From positions 100,754 through 164,753 of the forward strand of contig CADAPM010000007.1 in NCBI GenBank assembly GCA_902789795.1: a stretch of DNA of 64,000 nucleotides, read 5' to 3'. The notes below the pieces were generated by a model. That model was not told the origin of the DNA. It saw only the letters and a list, made by a program, of their open reading frames with translations, and did no database searches. Source of the stretch: an uncultured Eubacteriales bacterium. GTDB lineage: Bacteria; Bacillota; Clostridia; Christensenellales; Aristaeellaceae. Shown here piece after piece: positions 2,875 to 63,514 of this stretch (within the stretch, counting starts at the first letter, position 1; each line of letters opens with the position of its first letter). The position numbers were made by a program, and so were the translations under genes.

Positions 2875-3939
2875 ATGTACCTGATTACGGATCCGGCATG
2901 GAAATTCGGCTGCGGGCGCTACATCCAGAAGCCCGGCGCCTTTGAATGCCTCCAGGAGGAGATCGCGCGCCTGGGCAAAAAGGCGCTGGTGATCAGCGGC
3001 CGCAGGGCCTGGCAGGCGGTGCTCGACTGCTATGACGAGCCCCTGGCGGGCATTTTCTGCCGCCATGTGATCCATACCCAGCCCTGCAGCGAGGACGCGG
3101 CCCGGGAATATGTCGACGTGCTCAGACAGGAAAACGCCGATGTCATCGTGGGCATCGGCGGCGGAAAGATCATGGACCTGGCGAAGCTGATGGGGGAATT
3201 CTCCGGCTGTCCGGTCATCAATGTGCCCACCATCTGTGCCACCTGCGCGGCTTACACGCCGCTGTCGGTCCTGTATACGCCCGAGGGCCGGGCGCTGGGC
3301 TCCTGGTTCTTTGAAAACGAGATCGCCTGCCTGATCGCGGATACCCGCATCATGGCCCTGCAGCCGGCCCGGTATGCCTTTTCCGGCATCGCCGACAGCA
3401 TGGCGAAGATGATCGAGATCGACCACAATATCCAGTATACATCCCGCGGCGCGGACATGGTGTTCGCCCGCTACAACGCGGAATATCTGTATAGAAGGCT
3501 CTCGGAGATCGCCCCGCTCATGCCGGAGGAGCTGGCCAAGGGTGTCCCCTCGCCGCTGGTGGAGGAGCTGGTGTATCTGACCATCGCGGCGACGGGCATG
3601 GTCTCCGGCTGCGCCCGGGGCCAGGGGCAGTCGGCCCTGGCGCATGGCTTATATGAAGCATCCCGGACCCTGTACACCCGCGAAGCCCAGGGCTATCTCC
3701 ACGGCGAGATCGTGGGCGTGGGCCTCCGGCTGCAATTGGCCTATGACAATGCCGACGGGGCGGACCTGGACAGGATCCTGTCCGCTCTGGCACTGCCGAT
3801 GCACCTGCGGGACATCGGCATCCCGGAAAACGAAGCGGCTTACGGCCTGATCGCCGAGGACCTGAAAAACCGCAGGCTGCTGGACCACGAAGGCGACAGT
3901 GCGCAGCGGGTCATCGCGGCGCTCAAGCGGATCGAGTGA
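2875..3939 (+). CDS. Glycerol dehydrogenase-like iron-containing alcohol dehydrogenase
   Basis: 354 residues, like GldA-type enzymes. The NAD-binding glycine motif GIGGGKIMD lies near residue 100, and LSVLYTPEGR and HGLYEAS...HGEIVGVG correspond to the nucleotide and metal-binding regions; the histidines near HGLYE and HGEIV are the expected metal ligands. The start has GGAGGAG at 2861-2867. It follows the fusion gene by 37 bases and probably shares its transcript. The expected reaction is oxidation of a small polyol or reduction of the matching ketone. The 3' end overlaps the convergent MBL hydrolase gene by 17 bases. Confidence 0.88.
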   Translation: MYLITDPAWKFGCGRYIQKPGAFECLQEEIARLGKKALVISGRRAWQAVLDCYDEPLAGIFCRHVIHTQPCSEDAAREYVDVLRQENADVIVGIGGGKIMDLAKLMGEFSGCPVINVPTICATCAAYTPLSVLYTPEGRALGSWFFENEIACLIADTRIMALQPARYAFSGIADSMAKMIEIDHNIQYTSRGADMVFARYNAEYLYRRLSEIAPLMPEELAKGVPSPLVEELVYLTIAATGMVSGCARGQGQSALAHGLYEASRTLYTREAQGYLHGEIVGVGLRLQLAYDNADGADLDRILSALALPMHLRDIGIPENEAAYGLIAEDLKNRRLLDHEGDSAQRVIAALKRIE

Positions 3940-4906
3940 AAGCCGGGTCGTCCCTGCGCTTCAGCAGCGCGGCGAGGGCTTCCTCCGTCAGGCCTTCCGG
4001 CAGAATGTCTCCGACGCAATAGACTCTTGCTTTGCTGAACAGCGCGGAGATCGGGGGCAGGGCCGGAGTTTCCTTGGCGAAAACGACCGCGTCGATCTCT
4101 ACGGGGTAGAGGCCGCTGTGATCAAAGAGCGCCCGGATCATCCCGGAAGCCGGGACAAAGGGATCCACGATCAGGCGGCAGTCCTCCTGCCGGAGCAGCC
4201 AGGCGCATTGGGCCATGTCGCCGGAAAACAGGCGCCGACAGTCCCAGGAAGGCGCGGTCTGACCGAAGGGGGAGCAGTCAGCGGCATAAAACCAGTCCCC
4301 GTGCCCGGGAATGACGATGTCCGCGCTGCCCGCCGCTTGGCGGATGGTTTCCGCGGAGGTCAGGGGCGCTTTATCGAACCAGTAGCCCTCCGCGTGGCGG
4401 AAAAAGTCCTGGTCCATCACGGCGTCGCCGGTGACCAGGACGCGCTGCTGTCCGCCGGACGTAAAGCTGAGCCCCGTCAAGCCCGCGGTGTGGCCGGGCA
4501 GGGGCACGAGGGCGATGCGGTTGGTCAGCTGTCCCCGCACTACCTGATAAGCCTCCGGCCTGTCGGGGGCCTGGGGGTCGCCCCCCGCAATGGCGGCCCG
4601 CATGTCGTTGAGCGTCCCTTCGGAGATGCAGCAGGCGGCATGGGGATAGGCGAGGGCATCCACCCGGTGATCCGCGTGATAGTGGGTGATGTAAACCAGG
4701 CCGATGTCCTCCGCGCTCAGGCCCGCCCGGCGGCGGAGCAGGGCGTCCATCTGCCCGATGGGCAGCGAGGGATCGACCAGGATGTTCGTGTTTCCGTCCC
4801 GGATCAGCGTGCTGGTGGCCACCACCGGGCGATAGGCCAGCAGGTCGGATTCTCCCCAGAATTTATTCCGGGTGAGGCGGCCGGCGGTCAGGAGCTTCCA
4901 TTCCAT
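3923..4906 (-). CDS. MBL-fold metallo-hydrolase
   Basis: 327 residues from the ATG whose complement is at 4904-4906. A longer frame to 4939 exists, but the chosen start has GGAGGG seven bases upstream. The binuclear zinc signature HYHADH lies at residues 75-80, followed by the downstream ligands in GHTAGL, GDAVMD and PGHGDW. The fold hydrolyses lactones, thioesters and similar bonds; in a sugar-acid cluster a lactonase or ester hydrolase is plausible but unproven. It is transcribed divergently from the tautomerase operon, and its promoter shares an operator-like sequence with that operon, so the GntR regulator probably controls both. Confidence 0.85.
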   Translation of the reverse strand: MEWKLLTAGRLTRNKFWGESDLLAYRPVVATSTLIRDGNTNILVDPSLPIGQMDALLRRRAGLSAEDIGLVYITHYHADHRVDALAYPHAACCISEGTLNDMRAAIAGGDPQAPDRPEAYQVVRGQLTNRIALVPLPGHTAGLTGLSFTSGGQQRVLVTGDAVMDQDFFRHAEGYWFDKAPLTSAETIRQAAGSADIVIPGHGDWFYAADCSPFGQTAPSWDCRRLFSGDMAQCAWLLRQEDCRLIVDPFVPASGMIRALFDHSGLYPVEIDAVVFAKETPALPPISALFSKARVYCVGDILPEGLTEEALAALLKRRDDPAFTRSA

Positions 4907-5010: not shown

Positions 5011-5039
5011 TTGACACGATAAAACTGACATGTTACTAT
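5011..5039 (+). promoter_or_regulatory. Promoter of the tautomerase-GntR-glycerate kinase operon
   Basis: Consensus -35 TTGACA (5011-5016), a 17-base spacer and -10 TACTAT (5034-5039). One of the clearest sigma-70-type promoters in the window. ACATGT (5028-5033) is immediately upstream of the -10 box, so a bound repressor would block it. Confidence 0.75.
5028..5036. promoter_or_regulatory. Putative GntR operator, copy 2
   Basis: ACATGTTAC repeats nine bases of the site at 4944-4952, 84 bases away. It overlaps the spacer and -10 of the rightward promoter in the same relative position as copy 1 at the leftward promoter. Confidence 0.5.
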
Positions 5040-7575: not shown

Positions 7576-8816
7576 AGGACCGGATCAGAAAAGTGGTCGG
7601 CCGCGAGATCCTGAACGCGAAGGGCCGCCCGACCGTCGAAGCGGAGCTGGTGACCGAGGGCGGGATCCGGACGGTGGCGTCCGTACCGGTAGGCACCTCC
7701 CGGGGTAAGTACGAGGCCTGCGACCTGTATGACGGGGGAGAGCGGTACCGCGGCCTGGGCGTCCGCGCCGCAGCCGCCCATGTCTCCGGCTGCATCTCGG
7801 AAGCCCTGGCGGGCACAGAGGTGACCGATCAGAAGACGATCGACCGCATCCTGCTGGAGCTGGACGGCACGGAGAACAAATCCCGCCTGGGGGCAAACGC
7901 CATCCTGGCGACGTCTGTGGCGGCGGCCAAGGCGGGGGCGGCCGCGTCGGGCCTCGAGCCCTACGCCTATCTCTGCCCCGGCAGGACCGCTTACCGCATT
8001 CCCGACATCGTGGCGACGGTCATCGCGGGCGGCGTCTTTTCCACCTCGGGCCTGGAGTTTGAGGATTACATGCTGATCCTCCGGGACTTCGGGGAGTACC
8101 CCCGGGCGCTGGAAGCCCTGTGCGCCATGCGCGGCCTGCTCGAAAAGCGGCTGACGGAGCGCTACGGCATCTTCCCGGAGGACGGCGGCGCGCTCGCGCT
8201 CCCCTGCGCCTCCTCGGCGGAAGCGTTCGCGGAGATGCTTGAGACGGCGGACCGGCTGGGCTATTCAAAGAACGTCACCCTGGGCCTGGACGTGGCCGCC
8301 AGCGAACTGTACGAGCCGGAAACGGGAATGTACCGCCTTTCCAACGGCCGGAAGCTCGCGGCCGGGGAGCTCCTGGACTACTATGTTTCCCTGTGCCAGG
8401 ACTACCCCCTCACCTTTATCGAGGACGGCTTTGAGCAGGACCGGTTCGAGGATTTCAGCCGCCTGACCGCGCGGCTGCCGGGCATCCAGACCGTGGGCGA
8501 CGACCTGTTCGTCACCAATCCCGCCCGGCTGAAGCGGGGCATCGCGGCCAAAGCAGCCAACGGCCTGCTCATGAAGGTCAATCAGATCGGCACGGTCACC
8601 GAAGCCATCGCCGCCGCGCAGCTGGCGCAGGAGAACGACATGGACGTGATCGTTTCTCTGCGCTCGGGGGAGACCACCGATGACTTTATCGCGGATCTGG
8701 CGGTGGCCGTCGGGGCGCGGCAGATCAAGCTGGGCTCCCCGGTGCGGGCGGAGCGGATCGCCAAGTACAACCGGCTGCTGAAGATCTGGGACAGCCTGAC
8801 GAAATCGTCAGTATAG
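7572..8816 (+). CDS. Enolase paralogue with divergent active site
   Basis: 414 residues from GTG 7572, overlapping the glycerate kinase stop by four bases. The enolase fold is clear: SRLGANAILATSVA, LGLDVAASELY, FIEDGFEQDRFEDF, VGDDLFVTN, KVNQIGTVTEA and AKYNRLLKI. Metal ligands D240, E284 and D310 and the lysines K335 and K386 are kept, as are R364 and S365. Canonical catalytic positions are changed: the HRSGET histidine is L363, the GDEGG glutamate is D204 (EDGG), the QEF glutamate is D165, and the GGxH histidine is F156. A housekeeping enolase would not tolerate these. It may act on 2-phosphoglycerate inefficiently or on a related phospho-acid. Position in the operon supports the former, residues the latter. 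Confidence 0.85.
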   Translation: MKDRIRKVVGREILNAKGRPTVEAELVTEGGIRTVASVPVGTSRGKYEACDLYDGGERYRGLGVRAAAAHVSGCISEALAGTEVTDQKTIDRILLELDGTENKSRLGANAILATSVAAAKAGAAASGLEPYAYLCPGRTAYRIPDIVATVIAGGVFSTSGLEFEDYMLILRDFGEYPRALEALCAMRGLLEKRLTERYGIFPEDGGALALPCASSAEAFAEMLETADRLGYSKNVTLGLDVAASELYEPETGMYRLSNGRKLAAGELLDYYVSLCQDYPLTFIEDGFEQDRFEDFSRLTARLPGIQTVGDDLFVTNPARLKRGIAAKAANGLLMKVNQIGTVTEAIAAAQLAQENDMDVIVSLRSGETTDDFIADLAVAVGARQIKLGSPVRAERIAKYNRLLKIWDSLTKSSV

Positions 8817-50179: not shown

Positions 50180-50256
50180 GCGCCCTTAGCTCAGCTGGAT
50201 AGAGTGTTTGACTACGAATCAAAAGGCCGAGGGTTCGAATCCCCCAGGGCGCGCCA
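50180..50256 (+). tRNA. tRNA-Arg (anticodon ACG)
   Basis: 77 bases. Acceptor stem GCGCCCT/AGGGCGC, D-arm TTAGCTCAGCTGGATAGAG, anticodon stem TTTGA/TCAAA with loop CTACGAA (anticodon ACG), T-arm GAGGGTTCGAATCCCCC-like, discriminator G and an encoded CCA. A is presumably edited to inosine at the wobble position. The 3' end is the likely integration site of the island that follows. Confidence 0.95.
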
Positions 50257-50439: not shown

Positions 50440-51465
50440 TTATGTCTCGAAAATATCGATTTTGCCAAGTGCTGTGATGTTGTCTAAAATGGGATGGGTG
50501 TATCGGTTCAGTGTAGTGGAAATGTCTGCATGACCCATGACCGATTGAAGTGTTTTTGCATCGGTGTATGGTTCCATGAGAGAAGCGTAAGTGTGCCGAA
50601 AGACATGAGGCGTCGCACCATATAGATTTATTTTACTACTGATACGTTCCCATAATCTTTTGAACCCTGTTTCAGTTAAGGGGATGCTTTCGTCTTTGCG
50701 GTTTTTAACCACAAAACCCGTGCGTTCCTGAGTGCTGGTAAGTATGCTTAAGAGATGGGCGTTAATTGATATAAATCGAATACCCGCTGCACTCTTTGGA
50801 TTTCCAATAACTGGACGATTCATATTGTATGTTACAGCATGTTGCACATGGATCAAACGTTTTTCCAGATCAATATCTTGCCACATCAGGGCAATTATTT
50901 CTCCTCGACGCATTCCTGTAAAAATAGCAAGCCCCAAGAAGAGTTTTTCATCATCGTCCAATTTGTCCAATTGATAGATGATACTTTGAACATGCTCTTT
51001 TGACAAGGCGTCCCGCTTTGTGGCTTTTTTACTCATTACATAACGTTTTGAGTCGATAATGTTTGTTGCGATGATGCCATCTTCAACTGCGTTTTTAAAA
51101 ATCTGGTTAAGGACAATGCGAACTTTATTTACCGAAGACTTCGAAAGCAGACTCATATTGTTATAAAGCATTTGGACATCATCATGAGTGATTTGATTCA
51201 GTTGCTTGTCCCCGATATAAGGATAGATGTGCTTCTCGAGGTGAAGCTTTGTTTGCATCGCGGTATTTGGTTTTACTTTCGGTACATGATATGTTTTGAA
51301 CCAGTTGTCACCGTATTCTTTCAGTGACTGTGAGACTGCCTGTTGTGATACCAGACCATTTGTGCATTTGGCCAGCAGATTAGCAAACGCATCACTGATT
51401 GTTTTTCCAGTACAGTTGACAATTTCTCCATTGGGTAAGGTTATTTTTGCCTTGAATCTTGACAT
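50440..51465 (-). CDS. int: Tyrosine recombinase (integrase)
   Basis: 341 residues from ATG (complement of 51463-51465), with GAGAGG upstream. Layout: N-terminal arm-binding region, SAM-like core-binding domain (about 50-150), catalytic domain. Catalytic residues: R in FTGMRRGEIIAL, the K region before VIGNPKSAAGIRF, H-x-x-R in TPHVFRHTYASLM, H in VMGHADISTTLNRY and the nucleophile Y in the same segment. Typical of integrative elements using tRNA targets. Transcribed toward the tRNA. Confidence 0.93.
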   Translation of the reverse strand: MSRFKAKITLPNGEIVNCTGKTISDAFANLLAKCTNGLVSQQAVSQSLKEYGDNWFKTYHVPKVKPNTAMQTKLHLEKHIYPYIGDKQLNQITHDDVQMLYNNMSLLSKSSVNKVRIVLNQIFKNAVEDGIIATNIIDSKRYVMSKKATKRDALSKEHVQSIIYQLDKLDDDEKLFLGLAIFTGMRRGEIIALMWQDIDLEKRLIHVQHAVTYNMNRPVIGNPKSAAGIRFISINAHLLSILTSTQERTGFVVKNRKDESIPLTETGFKRLWERISSKINLYGATPHVFRHTYASLMEPYTDAKTLQSVMGHADISTTLNRYTHPILDNITALGKIDIFET

Positions 51466-51544
51466 GACTGCCTCTCTTTCAGCCATATCACGATTTATCC
51501 AGATGTGAAGTTGTCAAGCTCCGCTGCCATTTTACGGCACAACT

Positions 51545-51573: not shown

Positions 51574-51655
51574 CAAGATATAAGGGTTTTAGGAGTTTAG
51601 AATCGGATAATTCGCAGCAAGTTTTGGCTAATGATTCAGAACTTCAGGTCAGCAC

Positions 51656-51730
51656 TTTACAACTTTCGGATAACAACTTACAACTTTTGAGTAAGGCGCT
51701 TGCCAATCACGGGCAGCGCCTTTATTTTTT
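51656..51730 (+). terminator. ACAACTT repeats followed by an orphan terminator
   Basis: ACAACTT occurs three times at 51659-51687. A GC-rich stem AAGGCGC/GCGCCTT (51693-51722, extended by TGCC/GGCA) with TATTTTTTTT follows. No convincing gene precedes it; the 544-base stretch 51466-52009 holds only this, the integrase promoter and the first regulatory cassette. It may end a small RNA or be a relic. Related ACAACT repeats recur at 52248-52294. Confidence 0.55.
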
Positions 51731-51897: not shown

Positions 51898-51999
51898 AAG
51901 TCCCGTTTATTGGACAATACTGATGGTATCATTAAGTCACAAGGTTGAGGGAAGCAACCGAAACCTTGAAAGGCTAGCGGATAAGCCAACAACCGCGGA
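51898..51999 (+). promoter_or_regulatory. Small-gene regulatory cassette 1
   Basis: AAGTCCCGTTTATTGGACA: dyad GTCC-N8-GGAC (51900-51915), then exactly 11 bases to TATCAT (51927-51932), then AAGTCACAAGG and a leader with GGTTG-agggaag-CAACC inside an outer CAAGG/CCTTG stem, and GCGG...CCGC before the ribosome site. The same plan precedes four further genes. Confidence 0.65.
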
Positions 52000-52009
52000 A
52001 AGGAAGATT

Positions 52010-52228
52010 ATGAAGATGGCAAAGGTTATCACGATGAAGATTGCTCTGAACAAAAGGCACACGCTGGAACTGGTAACGACTGTTGACCCCAATATGACTG
52101 TTGAAAAGCTGCTCTCCATGCTCTGCATAAGCGGATTTGTCATCAAAGCTGAGGAAACACCCATTATGCCGCTGCCCGTTGCACTGATCCATTCGGCTAA
52201 CGTGCAAAGGAATCTGGGCATCATCTGA
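52010..52228 (+). CDS. Small hypothetical protein of the cassette array
   Basis: 72 residues from ATG 52010, with AAAGGAAG upstream; an upstream in-frame extension would translate the regulatory cassette and is rejected. Sequence begins MKMAKVITMKIALNKRHTLE and has one CISG segment. No domain, signal or membrane helix is certain. First of five genes with the shared cassette. Confidence 0.55.
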   Translation: MKMAKVITMKIALNKRHTLELVTTVDPNMTVEKLLSMLCISGFVIKAEETPIMPLPVALIHSANVQRNLGII

Positions 52229-52295
52229 CAAGAGTCGCGTTTTCAATTACAACTATCGGCTATAAAGCTACAACTTATGGATAAGCAGCTACAAG

Positions 52296-52400
52296 TCCCA
52301 ATTATTGGACAATACATTATATATAATAAAGTCACAAGGTAAGGGAAGAACCCAGAGCCTTGAAGAAGAAAGGCAGCGGATAAGCCATCAAGCCGCGGGA
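52296..52400 (+). promoter_or_regulatory. Small-gene regulatory cassette 2
   Basis: GTCCcaattattGGAC (52295-52310), 11 bases, perfect TATAAT (52322-52327), AAAGTCACAAGG, then GGG-aagaa-CCC within CAAGG/CCTTG, followed by GCGGATAAGCC...CCGCGGGAAGG. It shares its whole leader with cassette 1. Confidence 0.7.
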
Positions 52401-52410
52401 AGGAAAAACA

Positions 52411-52776
52411 ATGAGCGCCACCACCAACATGATCATCAAGCTGAACAACAACACCGATGCCAACAAAGCTGCCGCTATCATGAAGGAAGTTGCTTCCAAA
52501 GTCACCCCCGATTATCCTACCGAAATCAGCAAGTTCGTTGCTGACATCACCGTTGAAGGCTGCACCGTAAAGGTTGAAGAAAGCTTCTCTCTCATGAGCT
52601 GCACCTTCTGCGACATGATTCCGCAGATCATGAGGGCGATTGCAAAGAACGGCTTTGGCCCCATCGCCATGGAAGCCTGGTTTACCTCTTTCTCCTCCGA
52701 TTATGAGGCCGAATTCAGCGCACGGGTTTACAAGAACGGTAAGTTCACGATGACCTTCAACGAGCATGATGATTAA
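52411..52776 (+). CDS. Hypothetical protein of the cassette array
   Basis: 121 residues, soluble, mildly acidic. Starts MSATTNMIIKLNNNTDANKAA; a cysteine pair occurs in SLMSCTFCDMIPQIM near residue 63, and aromatic residues cluster in MEAWFTSFSSDYEAEFSARVYKNGKF. The beta-rich pattern with one helix suggests a small alpha/beta fold. GGGAAGGAAAA precedes the ATG. No homology recognised. Confidence 0.65.
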   Translation: MSATTNMIIKLNNNTDANKAAAIMKEVASKVTPDYPTEISKFVADITVEGCTVKVEESFSLMSCTFCDMIPQIMRAIAKNGFGPIAMEAWFTSFSSDYEAEFSARVYKNGKFTMTFNEHDD

Positions 52777-52790
52777 AGCCAAACATAAAT

Positions 52791-52870
52791 AAGTCCCGAT
52801 TATTGGACAACACAACTGATAGAATGTAATCACAGGATGAGGGAAGGAACCTCACCTGAAGATAAAAAAC
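52791..52870 (+). promoter_or_regulatory. Small-gene regulatory cassette 3
   Basis: GTCCcgattattGGAC (52793-52808), 11 bases, TAGAAT (52820-52825), then GTAATCACAGGATGAGGGAA and a hairpin AGG.GAGG-gaaggaa-CCTC.CCT. Confidence 0.7.
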
Positions 52871-52909
52871 AAGAGGAAGGACACCTCACAAACCAGAAAG
52901 GAAACTATT

Positions 52910-53299
52910 ATGAAGCAGAATCACAACTACGAGATCAACTACATCGAGAACACCATCACCGTGACCAAGAAGTTCCTGAAAGAAGCGGGTGTCATCGGTA
53001 GCGCTGCTTACAAAGAGCTGGCGCAACTGCGCAAAGACCTCCCCGACTTCCAGATCGTTCAGCGGGAAATCAGCAAGAAGAAGGATAAGAAGACGTACGG
53101 AAAGCTGGATTACAAGGCCATGGGCGAGTTCATCAAAGAGAAAGAAGAAGATGCTGCGGACACGGTACTGGCTGAATTCGAGCACGTAAAGCAACTTTCC
53201 AAGATCAGGAGCGGTTCCTACGCTTATGTGAAGACGTGGTTCCTTGCCCGCTACAAGGACGAGTTCGCCGCGGCAGAAACCGAAGAAGAAGTAGCATAA
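52910..53299 (+). CDS. Array paralogue A (hypothetical)
   Basis: 129 residues. Shares with the next two genes an N-terminal motif Y-x-I-[NDS]-x-x-x-N-T-[IL]-T-[VMI]-[ST]-x-x-F and a C-terminal Y-x-Y-V-[KR]-x-W-F (here YAYVKTWFL). The middle is strongly charged (SKKKDKKTYGKLDYKAM; EFIKEKEEDAADT) and probably helical. AGAAAGGAAAC precedes the ATG. Likely an intracellular binding protein; function unknown. Confidence 0.75.
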   Translation: MKQNHNYEINYIENTITVTKKFLKEAGVIGSAAYKELAQLRKDLPDFQIVQREISKKKDKKTYGKLDYKAMGEFIKEKEEDAADTVLAEFEHVKQLSKIRSGSYAYVKTWFLARYKDEFAAAETEEEVA

Positions 53300-53300
53300 G

Positions 53301-53370
53301 ACCCGATTATTGGACACATCAACCGCTATAATAAAGACACAAGATGAGGGAAGGAAAACCCATTAAACCA
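53301..53370 (+). promoter_or_regulatory. Small-gene regulatory cassette 4
   Basis: GACCcgattattGGAC (53300-53315), 11 bases, perfect TATAAT (53327-53332), then AAGACACAAGATGAGGG and a hairpin ATG.GGG-aaggaaaa-CCC.AT. The first half-site differs from the others by one base. Confidence 0.7.
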
Positions 53371-53387
53371 GAAAGTGAGTAAGAAGT

Positions 53388-53822
53388 ATGGCTAACAAGA
53401 ATCAGGGTTACAAAATCAATTGGAGCACCAACACCATTACCATGACCAAGAAGTTCGCGGCTGAAGCTAACCAGTATGGCACGGAGGCCTACAACATGAT
53501 GATGGATATCCGCGGCAAGGGCTTCACCGTCGCTATCAAGGAATCCGCTCCCCGTAAGGCTTGCCCCACCCGACTCACATTCAAGCAGATGGAGACCCTT
53601 CTCTCTTGCATGGACTACGCGGACGAACGTCTGGCACAACTCCACATCGTCATGGACGCGGGCAAGGGCCAGAAGAACCAGTATGAATACGTGCGGCGCT
53701 GGTTTCTGAAGAACTATCCCCACTTCGCGGAGACCCCCGTGCTGAACAGCAGCAACCATCTGGTTGCCCCGCGGGTGGAACTGATGCCCGAAGCTGCCGA
53801 ACCGCTGAAGCTGACCGCGTAA
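53388..53822 (+). CDS. Array paralogue B (hypothetical)
   Basis: 144 residues, paralogous to genes A and C: YKINWSTNTITMTKKF at residues 8-23 and YEYVRRWFLKNYP near 105. The centre differs (SAPRKACPTRLTFKQMETLLSCMDYADERL), and the tail is proline-rich. Basic overall. Start ATG 53388; ribosome site weak (AAGAAG). Confidence 0.75.
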   Translation: MANKNQGYKINWSTNTITMTKKFAAEANQYGTEAYNMMMDIRGKGFTVAIKESAPRKACPTRLTFKQMETLLSCMDYADERLAQLHIVMDAGKGQKNQYEYVRRWFLKNYPHFAETPVLNSSNHLVAPRVELMPEAAEPLKLTA

Positions 53823-53895
53823 GACCATATTATTGGACGCCGATACTGATAAAATGTAATCACAGGATGAGGGAAGGAACCTCACCTAAAAGAGG
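53821..53895 (+). promoter_or_regulatory. Small-gene regulatory cassette 5
   Basis: GACCatattattGGAC (53823-53838), 11 bases, TAAAAT (53850-53855), then GTAATCACAGGATGAGGGAA and hairpin AGG.GAGG-gaaggaa-CCTC.CCT, almost identical to cassette 3. Confidence 0.7.
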
Positions 53896-53931
53896 TCAAG
53901 GACAGACCGAAAAACCAGAAAGGATAAGAAA

Positions 53932-54387
53932 ATGACTAACGGCTACAATTACGACGCTCTGAGCAACACCCTGACCATCTCCGCTTCCTTTGCCAAGAAG
54001 GCTTCCAAGGTTGGTTCGCTGGAATACAACATTATTCTGAAGCTGCGTCACGACTTCCCCGATCTGACGATCCAGCAGGAAGCCAAGCGGGAAGCGGAAA
54101 AGAAGCTGAATTACCACCAGATGGAAGAGTTCATCGACATGCACCGCAACGCCACCGAACTGCGTGCAACCTTTGAGAAAGTCAAGAAGCTTTCCCACAT
54201 TCAGTCCATGCCCTATAGGTACGTGAAGAATTGGTTTGAGCGCACCTTCCCCTATTACGACAATCCCGCCATGGATGATGATGGTTTTGTAGTAGACCCT
54301 ATGACCCTGAACAGCATGAAAGAAATGATAAATGAAGTGACTGCTGGAAACATTCAGGAAGCTGTACCCGTGAAAGCTGCTGCCTGA
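53932..54387 (+). CDS. Array paralogue C (hypothetical)
   Basis: 151 residues, paralogous to A and B: YNYDALSNTLTISASF at 4-19, LNYHQMEEFIDMHRN in the middle (matching LDYKAMGEFIKEK of A) and YRYVKNWFERTFPYY near 100. An extended tail of about 40 residues ends in VKAAA. CCAGAAAGGATAAG precedes the start. Confidence 0.75.
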   Translation: MTNGYNYDALSNTLTISASFAKKASKVGSLEYNIILKLRHDFPDLTIQQEAKREAEKKLNYHQMEEFIDMHRNATELRATFEKVKKLSHIQSMPYRYVKNWFERTFPYYDNPAMDDDGFVVDPMTLNSMKEMINEVTAGNIQEAVPVKAAA

Positions 54388-54913: not shown

Positions 54914-55012
54914 ATAGACTATACGGGCGAAAGCATAGATAACCGCATTTAAACCAAAATAATAAAGAATTGCGGAGGGAAACCGCGTAAACAAACCAGA
55001 AAGGAAATTTAT

Positions 55013-55369
55013 ATGACTAATACGAATAAGAATGACATTTTCAACTCTGTGCCCTCTTGCTGCGTCATCAAAGTCGCTTTTGATGGAGAAATGTGCGAAG
55101 CACTTAATGAAGAATATGGAAAAGAATTCCTGGCTTTCAAGAATGAAGAATATGGAATGGGCATCTTTGCATCAGAAGATGCGGAGTTCGGAGTTTATGG
55201 TGACGATCTGGTTTCTATACTTGCAATCAATGGATATTGGGATACTCATGAAGACCAAATCAAAGAAGCGCTCAATAGTGCAACCAGTATGGATGAACTT
55301 TGCGGCGCTTTGAGCAGAATCGTAGTTGAATGCATTATGGATATTTTGAGAACCGCAAACGCTGCATAA
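55013..55369 (+). CDS. Hypothetical protein, paralogue pair member 2
   Basis: 118 residues, acidic. Shares with the preceding gene the GI[WF]-x-x-SED...YWD...I-[EK]-E-[AF]-L-N pattern. CCAGAAAGGAAA is the same ribosome-site context used by the cassette genes. A strong terminator follows, ending the small-gene array. Function unknown. Confidence 0.65.
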   Translation: MTNTNKNDIFNSVPSCCVIKVAFDGEMCEALNEEYGKEFLAFKNEEYGMGIFASEDAEFGVYGDDLVSILAINGYWDTHEDQIKEALNSATSMDELCGALSRIVVECIMDILRTANAA

Positions 55370-55541: not shown

Positions 55542-55769
55542 ATGGCTGTCCAATACAACAAGCTATGGAAAATCTTGATCGATAAAAAGATGAGTAAAGG
55601 CGAACTGGGCAAGATAACGGGTATCTGCCCCAATACCATGACAAAGCTGAACAGGGACGAATTTGTCGCTATGCCGATTCTGGACAGGATTTGCGAAGCC
55701 CTGAATGTGGATTACGGCGATATCGTGGAGCATATAAAGGACGAACAGGAGGCCGCTCAAAATGGCTGA
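55542..55769 (+). CDS. XRE-family helix-turn-helix regulator
   Basis: 75 residues from ATG 55542, with GAGGAGGG seven bases upstream. [33 protein letters not shown] is a Cro/CI-type helix-turn-helix, then [16 protein letters not shown]. The domain fills the whole protein. It overlaps hsdM by eight bases. Probably delays or limits restriction operon expression on entry into a new host, like controller proteins. Confidence 0.88.
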
Positions 55770-57324
55770 CGTAAAGAAAGAGCAGGAGCGCGACGAACTG
55801 CACCGTGCGATCTGGGCGATTGCCGATGAACTGCGCGGCAGCGTGGATGGTTGGGATTTCAAAAATTACGTGCTGGGCACGATGTTTTATCGCTACATCA
55901 GCGAAAACCTGACCGCCTACATCAACGATGGCGAACACGAAGCGGGCAATACTGATTTTGACTATGCTGCCATGTCTGATGCGGACGCCGAAGAGGCGCG
56001 GAGCGGCCTGATCGAGGAAAAGGGCTTCTTCATTCTGCCGAGCGAATTGTTCTGCAATGTATGTGTGAGAGCAGCGGAGGATGAAAACCTGAACGAAACC
56101 CTGGAAACGGTGTTCCGTCACATTGAGGACAGCGCCAAGGGCAGCGTGTCAGAAAGCGACTTCGCGGGCCTGTTTGATGATTTTGACGTGAATAGCAATA
56201 AGCTTGGCGCAACGGTTGCCAAGCGCAACGAACGGCTGTGCAAGCTGCTGTGGGGCGTTCGTGATATGCGGCTGGGTGAAGTGAAGAATCACGATATTGA
56301 CGCTTTCGGCGACGCCTATGAATACCTGATGACTATGTATGCCAGCAACGCGGGCAAAAGCGGCGGTGAGTTCTTTACGCCCGCTGACGTTTCTGAACTG
56401 CTGACCCGTTTGGGGACTGTGGGCAAAACGGAGATCAATAAGGTGTATGACCCTGCCTGCGGCTCTGGATCGCTATTGCTGAAAGCCGAAAAGGTGCTGG
56501 GACATGATGCTGTGCGCAACGGCTTCTTTGGACAGGAAATTAACATTACCACCTACAACCTGTGCCGCATCAACATGTTCCTGCATGATGTGGGCTTTGA
56601 TAAATTCAATATCGCCTGCGAAGACACACTGACTGCGCCGCAGCATTGGGACGATGAACCGTTTGAACTGATCGTTTCCAATCCACCTTATTCCATCAAA
56701 TGGGCAGGTGACAGCAACCCCATCCTGATCAATGACCCGCGCTATTCGCCCGCTGGTGTGCTGGCCCCTAAGAGCGCTGCAGACTTTGCATTCATCATGC
56801 ACTCCCTTTCCTGGCTGGCAGCGAATGGTACTGCTGCAATCGTCTGTTTCCCTGGTATTATGTATCGCGGCGGTGCGGAGCAGAAGATCCGCAAATACCT
56901 GATCGACAACAACTTTGTGGATTGCGTGATCCAGTTGCCTGGCAACCTGTTTTTCGGTACGTCCATTGCCACCTGCATCATGGTGCTGAAAAAGAACAAG
57001 ACGGACAACAAGACCCTGTTCATCGATGCCACCAAAGAGTGCATCAAGGTAACGAAAAACAACAGGCTGACCGCTGACAACATTGAAACCATTGTCGGCA
57101 CCTTTGCCAACCGCGAAGAAAAGCCTCATTTCTCACACGTTGCCGCGTATGACGAAATCGTAGGAAACGACTATAACCTGTCTGTCAGCACCTATGTGGA
57201 AGCGGAAGACACGCGGGAAAAGGTGGACATCATGAAGCTGAACGCGGAGATTGAGGATATCGTGAAGCGGGAAGATGAACTGCGGGCTGCCATCCGACAA
57301 ATCATTGCGGAAATCGAGGGATAA
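55762..57324 (+). CDS. hsdM: Type I restriction-modification methyltransferase subunit
   Basis: 520 residues. N-terminal HsdM helical domain ([14 protein letters not shown]...[18 protein letters not shown]), SAM site [17 protein letters not shown] near residue 230, catalytic NPPYSIKW near residue 307 (adenine-N6 type). The C-terminal coiled coil ([21 protein letters not shown]) contacts HsdS. Full length, so active methylation is expected. Confidence 0.95.
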
Positions 57325-59019: not shown

Positions 59020-59943
59020 ATGAAACTTGGAAAGTTGAAAGAAATTGACATCCGCAAAGTCTGGGCGCATGAACAATATGATTTTTCTAAATGGCTTGCC
59101 AGTGAAAGCAACATTCAGGAATTAGGCGATGTTCTCAATTTGTCCTTGACGAATGTTGAAACCGAAAAGTTTGTTGGCAATTACCGTTGCGACATTCTCT
59201 GTCAGGATGAATTGACTGGAAAAACGGTTTTGATTGAAAATCAGTTGGAGTCCACCAATCATGACCATCTGGGAAAAATCATCACCTATGCTTCTGGACT
59301 GGATGCAGCCGTTGTGGTTTGGATCGTCGCCGAGGCGCGGGACGAACACGCCAGCGCCATCGAATGGCTGAACAAGCATACGGATGAAGATGTATCCTTT
59401 TTCCTGTTGGAAATCCATGCCTATACCATCGGTGATTCAGATCCCGCCCCTCAGTTTCACATCGTGCAGCAGCCGAATGATTTTGCAAAAACTGCGAAGA
59501 GCTTGGCCCAGAAAGGCGATCTGAACTCGACACAAACCAGCCGCTTGGAATTCTGGACGAAGCTGAATGACGCAATCGACCAGAAAGGAAAGCCTTTCAA
59601 TAAACACAAGCCATCAACTGACCATTGGTATAATGTTGCTATTGGAACATCCCAGTGCCATATTTCGATTGAGTTGGTGAACAAGGATCACAAAATATGG
59701 ATCAGCCTGTGGATTCCTGACAACAAAGAGCTTTTCGATTCATTCCTGGAACACAAGGCAGAAATTGAAGAAACAACAGGATTCCCACTGAAATGGAACA
59801 GACTGGAAGGCAAAAAAGGTTCCTTCATTGGCAAGGATATTCCTGGCTTGGATTTTAGCAAGCAAGAGAATTACCCCGAATTGATGGAAGAAGTTATTGA
59901 TATGGTGATGCTGTTTAAGAAAGCATTTTCACCGTACATATAA
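59020..59943 (+). CDS. DUF4268 / PD-(D/E)XK nuclease-like protein
   Basis: 307 residues. The core reads YRCDILCQDELTGKTVLIENQLESTNHDHLGKIITYASGLDAAVVVWI: D-x12-E-x-Q is a nuclease-type metal site (D at about 67, E at about 81, Q at 83), and the NHDHLGK...TYA.GLDA part is diagnostic of DUF4268. The C-terminal half holds the DUF4268 domain (YNVAIGTSQCHISIEL). Found with restriction and other defence genes; probably an accessory nuclease or anti-phage effector. Confidence 0.8.
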   Translation: MKLGKLKEIDIRKVWAHEQYDFSKWLASESNIQELGDVLNLSLTNVETEKFVGNYRCDILCQDELTGKTVLIENQLESTNHDHLGKIITYASGLDAAVVVWIVAEARDEHASAIEWLNKHTDEDVSFFLLEIHAYTIGDSDPAPQFHIVQQPNDFAKTAKSLAQKGDLNSTQTSRLEFWTKLNDAIDQKGKPFNKHKPSTDHWYNVAIGTSQCHISIELVNKDHKIWISLWIPDNKELFDSFLEHKAEIEETTGFPLKWNRLEGKKGSFIGKDIPGLDFSKQENYPELMEEVIDMVMLFKKAFSPYI

Positions 59944-60401: not shown

Positions 60402-63400
60402 TGAAAATGCCCTACTTCAACATCGTTGCTGAAACCAACGAAAACACCGTTGTCACCACCTATGAGCCACTCCCCAAACGCCCCGAAGCATACCAGAGCG
60501 AAGCGGCATTGGAGCGGGAGTTCATTCGCTTGCTTTCGCAGCAGGGCTATGAGGACAAGACCATCCATTCGGAGGAAGAGCTGATCTCCAACCTGCGGGT
60601 GCAGTTGGAGAAGTTGAATAACTACCATTTTTCCGATGACGAATGGCAGCGGTTCTTTTCTTCCGCAATCGCCAACCCCAACGAGCATATCGTGGAAAAA
60701 ACCCGTAAAATCCAGGAAGACAATGTGCAAGTGCTGACCCGCGACGATGGCACCAGCAAGAACATCACGCTGATCGATCGCAAGAACATCCACAACAATT
60801 ATCTGCAAGTGATTGACCAGTTTGTGATGGGCTTGAAAGAAGGGGCGAAGCACGATAACCGCTATGACGTGACCATTCTGGTGAACGGATTGCCGCTGGT
60901 GCATGTGGAATTGAAACGCCGCGGCGTGGCGATCCGCGAAGCCTTTAACCAAATCAACCGCTATCAGCGGGATTCTTTCTGGGCAGGCCACGGCTTGTTT
61001 GAGTTCGTGCAGATTTTCGTGATCTCCAACGGCACCAACACCAAGTATTACTCCAACAGCACCCGCTTCAATGCTATCAGGGAGCAAGCGGGTACCAGCT
61101 GGCCGAAGAAAAAGACCAGCAACAGTTTTGAATTCACCTGCTTCTGGGCTGACGCCAACAACCGCGTGATCCCCGACCTGATGGACTTCACCCGCACCTT
61201 TTTTGCCAAACATACGCTGCTAAACATACTGACTAAATACTGTATTTTCACTTCGGAAAACCTGCTGCTGGTGATGCGGCCTTACCAGATCACCGCTACA
61301 GAACGAATCCTTAACCGCATTGAGGTTTCCACCAATTATAAGAAATACGGCACAGTAGCAGCGGGAGGCTATATCTGGCATACCACTGGCAGTGGCAAAA
61401 CGTTGACTTCCTTCAAAACGGCAAGAACGGCTTCCCAATTGCCTTATATCGACAAGGTGCTGTTTGTCGTAGACAGAAAAGACCTGGATTACCAGACCAT
61501 GAAGGAATACGACCGCTTTGAAAAAGGCTGTGCCAACAGCAACACCAGTACGGCGGTCTTGAAAAAGCAGTTGGAAGACCCTAATGCCAGAATCATCATT
61601 ACCACTATTCAAAAGCTATCCAATTTCGTAAATCGAAACAAGACGCATGACGTGTATAACCAACATGTGGTCATGATTTTTGACGAGTGCCACCGCAGCC
61701 AGTTCGGCGACATGCGGAACGACATCGTAAAGAGCTTCAAAAAGTATCATATTTTCGGCTTCACAGGCACGCCCATTTTCGCGCAAAACGCAGGCGCACA
61801 GCGCGGCCAGATTTACACCACAGCACAGGCATTCGGTGATCAACTGCATACCTATACCATCGTGGACGCCATTAACGATAAAAACGTGTTGCCTTTCCGC
61901 GTGGATTATATCAAGACCATGGACGTGGATGATAACATCGACGATGAACAGGTATGGGACATTCTGCGTGAAAAGGCGTACATGGCTTCTGAACGCATCG
62001 CACTGGTGACAAAATACATTCTGGAACACTTTGAGCAGAAGACCTACCGCACCAGTGGGCCAAGCTATTCCTTCAACCGCCTGACCAACATTGCGGAAGT
62101 GGCAGGTGCCAAGCGGGACAGCGCAAAAGAGAAAAAGGACGCACAGCATATCAGAGGCTTCAATTCCATTTTTGCCGTTGCGTCAGTCCCCATGGCGAAG
62201 CTGTATTATAACGAATTCAAAAAACAGATGACCGCCGATCCATCCAGGAAGCTGAAAATCGCCACCATATTCAGTTATGGCGCGAATGAAGCGGAAGCGG
62301 ATGGCATACTGGACGAGGAAAACCCTGAAGATACCAGCGCCCTTGACCAGACGAGCCGCGACTTCCTGGACGCGGCGATTGCCGATTATAACGAAATGTT
62401 CCAGACCAACTACGATACCAGCAGCGACAAATTCCAGAATTATTATAAAGACGTTTCGCTGCGGATGAAAAACAAGGAACTGGATTTGCTGATCGTGGTG
62501 AATATGTTCCTGACGGGTTTTGACGCCACAACGCTGAACACGCTGTGGGTAGATAAAAACCTGAAAATGCACGGCCTGATCCAGGCTTTCAGCAGAACCA
62601 ACCGCATTTTGAATTCCATCAAGACCTTCGGCAATATCGTGTGTTTCCGCAACCTTCAAAAGCGGGTAGACAGCGCGATTTCACTGTTCGGCGACAAGGA
62701 AGCAAACGGCATCGTGCTACTGAAACCTTTCAAAGATTATTTTGAAGGATATTTGGGTGAGGATGGCAAACGGCATGACGGTTATGTGGACATGGTGAAC
62801 AATCTGCAAACCGATTTCCCGCTGACAGAGCCGCAAATCATCGGAGAAGAAAATCAGAAGAAGTTTATCGCCTTGTTCGGGGCTATCCTGCGGATGCGGA
62901 ACCTGCTTTCATCCTTTGATGAATTCCAGGGAAACGAAATGCTGAACGAGCGCGACATGCAGGATTACCTTGGAAGGTATCAGGATTTACGCGACGAATG
63001 GCGTGAAAAGAATAAACATAAAGGCACTGACATCACAGACGATATTGTTTTTGAAGTAGAACTGATCCGTCAAATCGAAATCAATATCGATTATATCCTG
63101 ATGCTAGTGAAGAAGTACCATGACAGCCATTGCGAAGATAAGAGCGTGCTAATTGATATTCGGAAGGCCATAGATTCATCGCCAGAATTGCGCAGCAAGA
63201 AAGACCTGATCGAAAGCTTCATCGCGGGCGTGAACGACGTGGAAGATGTCATGGCTGAATGGCATGATTTCGTGGCGGAAGAGCGCGAAAAAGAATTGAC
63301 TGCCATCATCCAAAGCGAAAAGCTGAAGGAAGCAGAAACCCGCAAATTCATTGAGAACGCTTTCCGTGATGGTGAGATAAAGACCACTGGCACAGATATT

Positions 63401-63514
63401 GACAGCATCATGCCACCCACTTCCCGCTTCGGCGGTGGAAACCGCGCTGCGAAGAAACAGGGGATCATTGAGAAGTTGAAAGCGTTCTTTGAGCGGTTCT
63501 TTGGGATTGGGTGA
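60401..63514 (+). CDS. hsdR: Type I restriction endonuclease/translocase subunit
   Basis: 1037 residues. The nuclease domain has YDVTILVNGLPLVHVELKRRG near 155-175 (D...ExK). The superfamily 2 motor has Walker A HTTGSGKTLTSF near 327, DECHRSQFG near 427, GFTGTPIF near 452, and later LIVVNMFLTGFD...QAFSRTNR. A C-terminal helical region docks to the methyltransferase. All motifs are intact, so the enzyme should cleave unmodified DNA. Confidence 0.95.
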   Translation: MKMPYFNIVAETNENTVVTTYEPLPKRPEAYQSEAALEREFIRLLSQQGYEDKTIHSEEELISNLRVQLEKLNNYHFSDDEWQRFFSSAIANPNEHIVEKTRKIQEDNVQVLTRDDGTSKNITLIDRKNIHNNYLQVIDQFVMGLKEGAKHDNRYDVTILVNGLPLVHVELKRRGVAIREAFNQINRYQRDSFWAGHGLFEFVQIFVISNGTNTKYYSNSTRFNAIREQAGTSWPKKKTSNSFEFTCFWADANNRVIPDLMDFTRTFFAKHTLLNILTKYCIFTSENLLLVMRPYQITATERILNRIEVSTNYKKYGTVAAGGYIWHTTGSGKTLTSFKTARTASQLPYIDKVLFVVDRKDLDYQTMKEYDRFEKGCANSNTSTAVLKKQLEDPNARIIITTIQKLSNFVNRNKTHDVYNQHVVMIFDECHRSQFGDMRNDIVKSFKKYHIFGFTGTPIFAQNAGAQRGQIYTTAQAFGDQLHTYTIVDAINDKNVLPFRVDYIKTMDVDDNIDDEQVWDILREKAYMASERIALVTKYILEHFEQKTYRTSGPSYSFNRLTNIAEVAGAKRDSAKEKKDAQHIRGFNSIFAVASVPMAKLYYNEFKKQMTADPSRKLKIATIFSYGANEAEADGILDEENPEDTSALDQTSRDFLDAAIADYNEMFQTNYDTSSDKFQNYYKDVSLRMKNKELDLLIVVNMFLTGFDATTLNTLWVDKNLKMHGLIQAFSRTNRILNSIKTFGNIVCFRNLQKRVDSAISLFGDKEANGIVLLKPFKDYFEGYLGEDGKRHDGYVDMVNNLQTDFPLTEPQIIGEENQKKFIALFGAILRMRNLLSSFDEFQGNEMLNERDMQDYLGRYQDLRDEWREKNKHKGTDITDDIVFEVELIRQIEINIDYILMLVKKYHDSHCEDKSVLIDIRKAIDSSPELRSKKDLIESFIAGVNDVEDVMAEWHDFVAEEREKELTAIIQSEKLKEAETRKFIENAFRDGEIKTTGTDIDSIMPPTSRFGGGNRAAKKQGIIEKLKAFFERFFGIG

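Follow-up and report, generated by a model that had tools for sequence, protein, structure and literature searches.

What drives the five consecutive short genes found inside an integrated island of an uncultured Eubacteriales bacterium, and to which signal could they respond? The stretch that we analyzed, referred to here as the window, comprises 64,000 nucleotides of assembly GCA_902789795.1 (C7:100754-164753 in our numbering, in which G, C, and L denote genomes, contigs, and loci and the genome of the window is G000) and reaches the contig end. The original prediction held that each gene stands behind its own copy of one promoter, operator, and leader cassette. Reading the five sites directly, we found this plan at every gene: a 33-bp promoter consisting of a GTCC or GACC half-site (GACC in cassettes 4 and 5), eight bases ending in TATT, a GGAC half-site, exactly 11 bases, and a TAnnnT hexamer, with one short open reading frame (ORF) per promoter (Table 1). 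Past the -10, all five copies continue as (G/A)(T/A)CACA(A)G, and this CACARG leader opens near the predicted +1. A normal -35 box was rejected, as had been anticipated, because TTGGAC lies only 11 bp from the -10. We consider it somewhat more likely than not that a WYL activator like DriD or PafBC binds the dyad and replaces the -35 contact, which would make the array a mobile-element regulon triggered by DNA damage or single-stranded DNA (ssDNA).

The motif TTATTGGAC-N11-TAnnnT matches exactly five times in the window, each time at one of the five cassettes; with up to two mismatches allowed, the count is 7, and shuffled sequence gives 1.38 on average. Following the suggestion to search the genome and related islands, we found seven exact matches of TTATTGGACN11TA in the whole genome, five in the window and two in a sister island (L008), with none for the reversed control. 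Across 396 genomes of the order, the pattern GTCCN5ATTGGACN11TANNNT is present in seven, the window's own included, with a control count of 0. The shuffle, whole-genome, and 396-genome control counts reject a chance origin of the cassettes, and the motif is not common genome-wide at unrelated genes. A host-wide regulon was likewise rejected for the window's genome (exact matches only), the motif being rare in the order as well, and so was a LexA operator, since the dyad does not have its sequence and the window promoters contain no LexA box.

The cassettes had been described as a private regulon laid out in cis within an integrated island, with uncharacterized proteins as its output. The layout, the island, and the uncharacterized products are supported, and the exact motif is indeed confined to islands in its own genome, but the same geometry recurs in other islands, in many contigs of phages, and at a few chromosomal genes, recA among them. 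We read the private regulon as an island branch of a wider promoter network.

Distribution of the promoter class

The dyad promoter is a widespread Clostridia class with a preferred 11-bp geometry. The looser pattern TTATTGGACN11TANNNT matched in 12 of 100 relatives, little above the control, and single matches therefore mean little. A stricter pattern including a YACAR leader gave 26 stretches among 84,980 species genomes, all metagenome-assembled genomes titled as Clostridia groups, and one stretch in IMG/VR. Relatives of genes 3 to 5, recognized with a family profile, are present in 8 of these 26 loci (L167, L168, L173, L182, L184, L189, L190, and L191), and L176, a short contig, shares their leader. 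Of the remaining stretches, six lie before a small MYxMRYVxGH-type gene (truA was called as its neighbor in five of them), five, judged by eye, before genes for small hydrophobic proteins, two before recA (L169 and L188), and four in other places. Text searches of the literature found no paper on the dyad, as far as the titles listed first show.

Viral stretches with GTCCNNNTTATTGGAC and a TATAAT located 4 to 24 bp downstream show a spacing of exactly 11 in 12 of 27 cases, two of them identical in sequence. A scan with the dyad core alone gave at least 120 stretches; those listed comprise 94 new loci, a sample that includes many chance matches and in which spacing 11 was seen in 1 of 87 new loci; the 11-bp peak is missing there because spacing-11 loci had already been fetched earlier. 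In L311, a dyad promoter at 7739-7771 immediately precedes a gene that by eye resembles a type III modification methylase, and the 15 kb of this locus show no array.

The G004 array (L049) keeps the leader and the -10, with the right half-site changed to CCCC or GAAC, which can be read as operator drift in a fixed frame, and the arrays of G057 and G008 have unlike sequence at the dyad position with the -10 and leader again in place. These changes bear on the idea that the TTTATTGGAC block is a noncanonical element read directly by the Clostridia RNA polymerase, without any dedicated regulator. Such a constitutive class would fit the wide distribution of TTTATTGGAC-block promoters and the stronger conservation of the right half and the spacing than of the left half in 24 cassettes, a set selected for similarity, yet the dyad motif is rare in host genomes, half-sites that change under a constant -10 and leader suggest a coevolving regulator, and the association with LexA, recA, and WYL genes described below also speaks against it. 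We consider this explanation improbable.

For counts of neighboring features in viral sequences, promoters that share the 24 bases following the dyad were treated as one. Of the 44 distinct viral dyad promoters with a good -10, seven are followed by a canonical LexA box within 60 nt, compared with 1 of 36 with a poor -10 and, for controls at the same loci, 1 of 44 upstream, 1 of 188 promoters of the sigmaA (TTGACA) type, and 0 of 158 with an extended -10. A downstream ORF was called for 25 of the 44 and none for the other 19, and 13 of the 25 called proteins belong to Peptidase_M78 (ImmA/IrrE), some being near relatives of each other.

In phages, the dyad often lies where an XRE-like gene ends, ahead of an M78 protease gene, and small XRE-like genes also sit near the arrays in L008, L189, L047, L167, and L366 (by eye). 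This raises the alternative that the dyad is the operator of the element's own Cro/CI-type (XRE) repressor and that the array is kept silent in the resident element and bursts on entry until the repressor accumulates, as with the establishment genes of the pLS20-family plasmid p576, where the same layout is under a repressor. A second GTCC-N8-GGAC is absent, however, from 11 of 12 phage loci (exact matches in contig parts), L077 having one, and a repressor operator has no need of the fixed 11 bp that is nevertheless seen in 12 of the 27 viral cases. Moreover, the XRE genes near the arrays look like different kinds (by eye), and some chromosomal WYL genes are flanked by dyads. An XRE repressor appears unlikely to us, though it deserves more weight than a constitutive promoter. 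By eye, the dyad's GTCCAATAA, taken on the other strand, resembles the last two codons and stop of the XRE repressor in L096, L100, L105, L107, L128, and L139.

Among cellular genes, recA carries the dyad in L169 (G458) and L188 (G459) and, with one half-site changed, in G113; the recA locus was obtained in 22 of 24 genomes, two without a readable start (G459 was read from L188), and the recA of the window's own genome is without the dyad. DNA-damage genes are therefore found behind this promoter elsewhere, the link coming from these recA loci and the viral LexA boxes. In L169 (recA at 3822-4844, dyad promoter at 5027), LexA boxes lie between the dyad and the start codon. The L169 recA thus has a two-promoter arrangement of dyad and LexA boxes, and an arrangement of this kind is known for mycobacterial recA.

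WYL-domain proteins as candidate regulators

The site had been predicted to be an operator for a dedicated regulator or a special sigma or activator site. A regulator- or activator-type promoter in place of a -35 agrees with our analysis; "dedicated" does not, the leading candidate being an activator of the WYL family, which is common to hosts and elements. Each of the five genes would be driven by an activator-dependent promoter at which a dimeric winged-helix WYL-domain protein would bind the GTCC...ATTGGAC dyad. With transcription starting 6 to 7 nt past the -10, the dyad would be centered at about -31 and overlap the missing -35, and the bound protein would hold RNA polymerase at the -10 exactly 11 bp away. 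Since the activators of this type that have been described respond to ssDNA or DNA damage, the array would most likely fire when the host of the element is damaged or the element moves, the trigger being damage, ssDNA entry, or both. It would then form the element-owned branch of a LexA-independent damage-type regulon in Clostridia, which may extend to phage M78 proteases, to some recA genes, and to the surroundings of certain WYL genes. Beside ArdC (in relatives) and restriction-modification genes, the array products would be expected to aid survival or establishment of the element.

WYL proteins entered the analysis through L174, where the dyad drives a small gene and a WYL-WCX protein is encoded 26 nt further on. 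With this protein as the query, 22 of the 24 genomes that have the motif or an array yielded relatives, and G000 and G458 did not; the set includes the query's own genome and G004 (array with changed half-sites). At E<=1e-30, the counts are 21 of 24 motif or array genomes versus 31 of 100 relatives, genomes that were not phylogenetically matched. A profile of 13 WYL sequences matched in all six motif genomes from the scan of the order (a fragment only in G331) and in 0 of 6 genomes of the same genus without an array match.

In relatives, WYL genes were also seen inside the island. In seven genomes (G004, G044, G050, G100, G109, G111, and G115), the WYL gene lies on the array contig itself, about 5 to 15 kb away, and six of these seven genes have integrase-, resolvase-, methylase-, or restriction-type neighbors (by eye or Pfam), no such neighbor being present within the 5 kb inspected around the G100 gene. 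G114, with a WYL gene 15 kb off in a phage-like region, was counted as uncertain. Where arrays are without the dyad in position (G008, G057, and G056), there is no WYL gene on the array contig, two of these contigs being short, and G008 has a WYL gene elsewhere in the genome.

Some WYL genes adjoin a dyad promoter directly. In L337 (G110), the promoter starts 55 nt before the WYL gene, the one such case among 30 loci besides the query source. We then examined 40 of 41 WYL matches, all but the one on contig C7 of G044, and five loci (L415, L424, L452, L453, and L454) have an adjoining dyad promoter that shares the strand of the WYL gene; it lies upstream of the gene in G019 and just downstream in the other four (G047, G027, G070, and G097). 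In all, the 40 loci hold 7 dyad matches, two of which look like chance, against 0 to 2 in 10 Markov controls.

Several observations weigh against a WYL activator. The query was picked because it sits beside the motif, the genome comparison is unmatched, and 35 of the 40 WYL loci are without an adjoining dyad. Neither Pfam nor the single protein nor the 13-sequence profile found a WYL gene in the window's own genome, an 88% complete assembly in which both islands run off contig ends, and the right end of an ArdC-bearing island on contig C10 has none either; G458, which has the dyad at recA, has no WYL relative at E<=1e-3. Only 3 of 22 genomes with a recA locus have the dyad there, and inspection of the five window promoters found no GAAC-N4/5-GTTC LexA box. 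The XRE-like genes that phage dyads often abut and that sit near several arrays would also fit an XRE regulator, and the known defense-linked WYL proteins, BrxR and CapW, are repressors.

Beyond the array itself, we tentatively propose, as something plausible but short of an even chance, that Clostridia integrative elements have a WYL activator of their own, which senses ssDNA or damage and fires a multi-promoter array of small proteins just at the time when the element's DNA is single-stranded or its host is failing, with the same signal tapped by phages (through ImmA-type antirepressors) and by some hosts (through recA) in a LexA-independent network. If so, GTCC-N8-GGAC-N11-TAnnnT would be a promoter code predicting which phage, island, and host genes answer one signal, prophage antirepressor expression would be linked to that signal, and a candidate regulator would have been named for mobile-element protein families without known function.

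Leaders, products, and island setting

The (G)TCACA-AGG leader noted originally is present, but the real leader is longer and forms hairpins in most copies. Leaders 1, 3, and 5 fold better than their shuffles, leaders 2 and 4 not clearly so. Of 16 leaders, 15 were compared (the short G044 leader was omitted), and in nine of these a perfect 4-bp stem encloses an AAGGA loop, with five different stem sequences. When arms were swapped between different AAGGA stems, full pairing survived in 1 of 58 combinations, and shuffled leaders formed an AAGGA-type hairpin in 14 of 4,500 cases. The leader hairpin is therefore conserved with covarying stems; at a guess, it serves mRNA stability or translation. 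Rfam gave no match in the array. At 54993-55005, the gene starting at 55013 has a cassette-type AAACCAGAAAGGA leader end without a dyad promoter before it.

Folding also bears on whether the cassettes are Frpo-type ssDNA promoters that would act during entry of the element into a new cell. A series of repeated promoters, each ahead of a small element gene in the vicinity of ArdC, does resemble leading regions, but at the promoters the strand folds no better than shuffles (z -0.47 to +0.63 in five copies) and the dyad stem is only 4 bp. With no strong single-strand fold at the promoter, we rejected this highly improbable explanation.

The five products have no match above the cutoff in Pfam, NCBIfam, or PADLOC and only weak ones in PHROGs; none belongs to the RHH family by Pfam, no search having been aimed at RHH. 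The sister-island gene in the position of gene 2 is a divergent relative that matches it weakly (E 2e-4 in a single comparison, with 28% over 82 columns), and no relatives of gene 2 were found in phages. Genes 3 to 5 encode paralogues A, B, and C, whose order and identity are kept in G000, G044, and G050. Each is 60 to 78% identical to its own counterparts in G044 and G050, versus 28 to 43% among the three, and with the order conserved this rejects a recent duplication. The G004 array also has three genes, which identity alone does not assign to A, B, or C. The AlphaFold model of gene 3 is weak (pLDDT 72, pTM 0.39) and has no PDB match at E<=0.001, a PDB profile search with the family of genes 3 to 5 gave weak matches only, and no gene 3 relatives were found in plasmids, phages, or viral contigs.

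The array adjoins an integrase next to tRNA-Arg, and the 3' part of this tRNA with its flank has no repeat of >=14 bases elsewhere in the window. On the 3' side of the array are two further small genes, then the gene of a small HTH_26 protein, and then type I restriction-modification genes, among which a PDC-S11 gene is inserted; the island's far end lies beyond the contig. The sister island is at the start of contig C3 and has a different integrase. At the start of contig C10 of the same genome (L388, 821-2600), ArdC and resolvase-type genes are followed by chromosomal-type genes; this stretch is probably the far end of one of the islands of this genome. No relaxase was recognized on reading the island stretches, no search having been aimed at relaxases. 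Words of the TACAACTT type are repeated at 51650-51690, between the integrase and cassette 1, and at 52245-52295, between genes 1 and 2, and are seen by eye upstream of the arrays in L189 and L049; they are possibly integrase arm sites.

Table 1. Positions in the window of the promoter cassettes, their leaders and genes, and the island features around them
Feature	Position	Strand	Details
tRNA-Arg(ACG)	50180..50256	+	Likely attachment side of the island, judging from the adjoining integrase
Tyrosine integrase	50440..51486	-	Pfam PF00589
Cassette 1 promoter	51900..51932	+	Dyad 51900-51915 GTCCCGTTTATTGGAC, N11, -10 TATCAT 51927-51932
Cassette 1 leader (predicted 5' UTR)	51936..52009	+	Two predicted hairpins, z -2.44
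Gene 1	52010..52228	+	72 aa; 93% identical copy (67/72) in sister island
Cassette 2 promoter	52295..52327	+	Dyad 52295-52310 GTCCCAATTATTGGAC, -10 TATAAT 52322-52327
Cassette 2 leader	52331..52410	+	z -1.07
Gene 2	52411..52776	+	121 aa
Cassette 3 promoter	52793..52825	+	Dyad 52793-52808 GTCCCGATTATTGGAC, -10 TAGAAT 52820-52825
Cassette 3 leader	52829..52909	+	AAGGA-loop hairpin, z -3.59
Gene 3 (paralogue A)	52910..53299	+	129 aa; family without known function
Cassette 4 promoter	53300..53332	+	Dyad 53300-53315 GACCCGATTATTGGAC (GACC), -10 TATAAT 53327-53332
Cassette 4 leader	53336..53387	+	Weakly structured, z -0.46
Gene 4 (paralogue B)	53388..53822	+	144 aa; family without known function
Cassette 5 promoter	53823..53855	+	Dyad 53823-53838 GACCATATTATTGGAC (GACC), -10 TAAAAT 53850-53855
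Cassette 5 leader	53859..53931	+	AAGGA-loop hairpin, z -2.76
Gene 5 (paralogue C)	53932..54387	+	151 aa; family without known function
Small HTH_26 regulator	55542..55769	+	Pfam PF13443; directly 5' of hsdM; rival regulator candidate
hsdM, type I methyltransferase	55762..57324	+	PADLOC MTase_I; island cargo
PDC-S11 candidate defense protein (DUF4268)	59020-59943		PADLOC; between hsdS and hsdR
hsdR, type I restriction subunit	60530..63514	+	PADLOC REase_I; island cargo

Comparison with known systems

BrxR and CapW resemble the present case in being WYL proteins of mobile islands with restriction-modification genes. Both repress, CapW from sites overlapping the -10 and BrxR from repeats downstream of its promoter, whereas the site in our cassettes lies at about -39 to -24 with a fixed spacing.

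The establishment regulons of the pLS20 family (p576 and EGeRS2) share with the window a promoter and operator copied ahead of several small element genes, ArdC in the element, and inverted repeats in the leader. In p576, an RHH repressor acts at TTATCCC motifs on a strong promoter, ardC is under this promoter, and the ardC leader has two short inverted repeats (PMC8708921). Unlike in p576, the ArdC gene in L048 has no exact dyad nearby that would place it under the promoter of the array.

LexA-independent, WYL-driven damage responses have been worked out in Caulobacter and mycobacteria, and the titles and abstract beginnings of the literature found on them name none in Clostridia. PafBC of mycobacteria is a WYL activator that works with the housekeeping polymerase in a second damage pathway beside SOS. 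One recA here (L169) likewise combines the dyad with LexA boxes. The motif differs, that of PafBC being TTGTCRGTG-N8-TAnnnT, and there is a single WYL gene here versus PafB plus PafC.

DriD of Caulobacter is a WYL activator switched by ssDNA, and its pseudopalindrome overlaps a poor -35 at a constant distance from the -10 (PMC12340889). It drives DidA, a 71-aa single-helix transmembrane division inhibitor (PMC4211646). The DriD site reads ATACGAC-N7-GTCGTAT, unlike the present dyad, whose targets include island arrays and phage proteases and for which we infer binding and activation. In the window cassettes, too, the dyad overlaps the position of a weak -35 at a constant distance from the -10. 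Comparable to the small DidA is a 64-aa hydrophobic protein (by eye) encoded after a dyad that follows the WYL gene of G097, with a similar start in G070. Given this DriD-like geometry and the hydrophobic genes in G097 and G070, we read the array as the element's own set of targets for such an activator.

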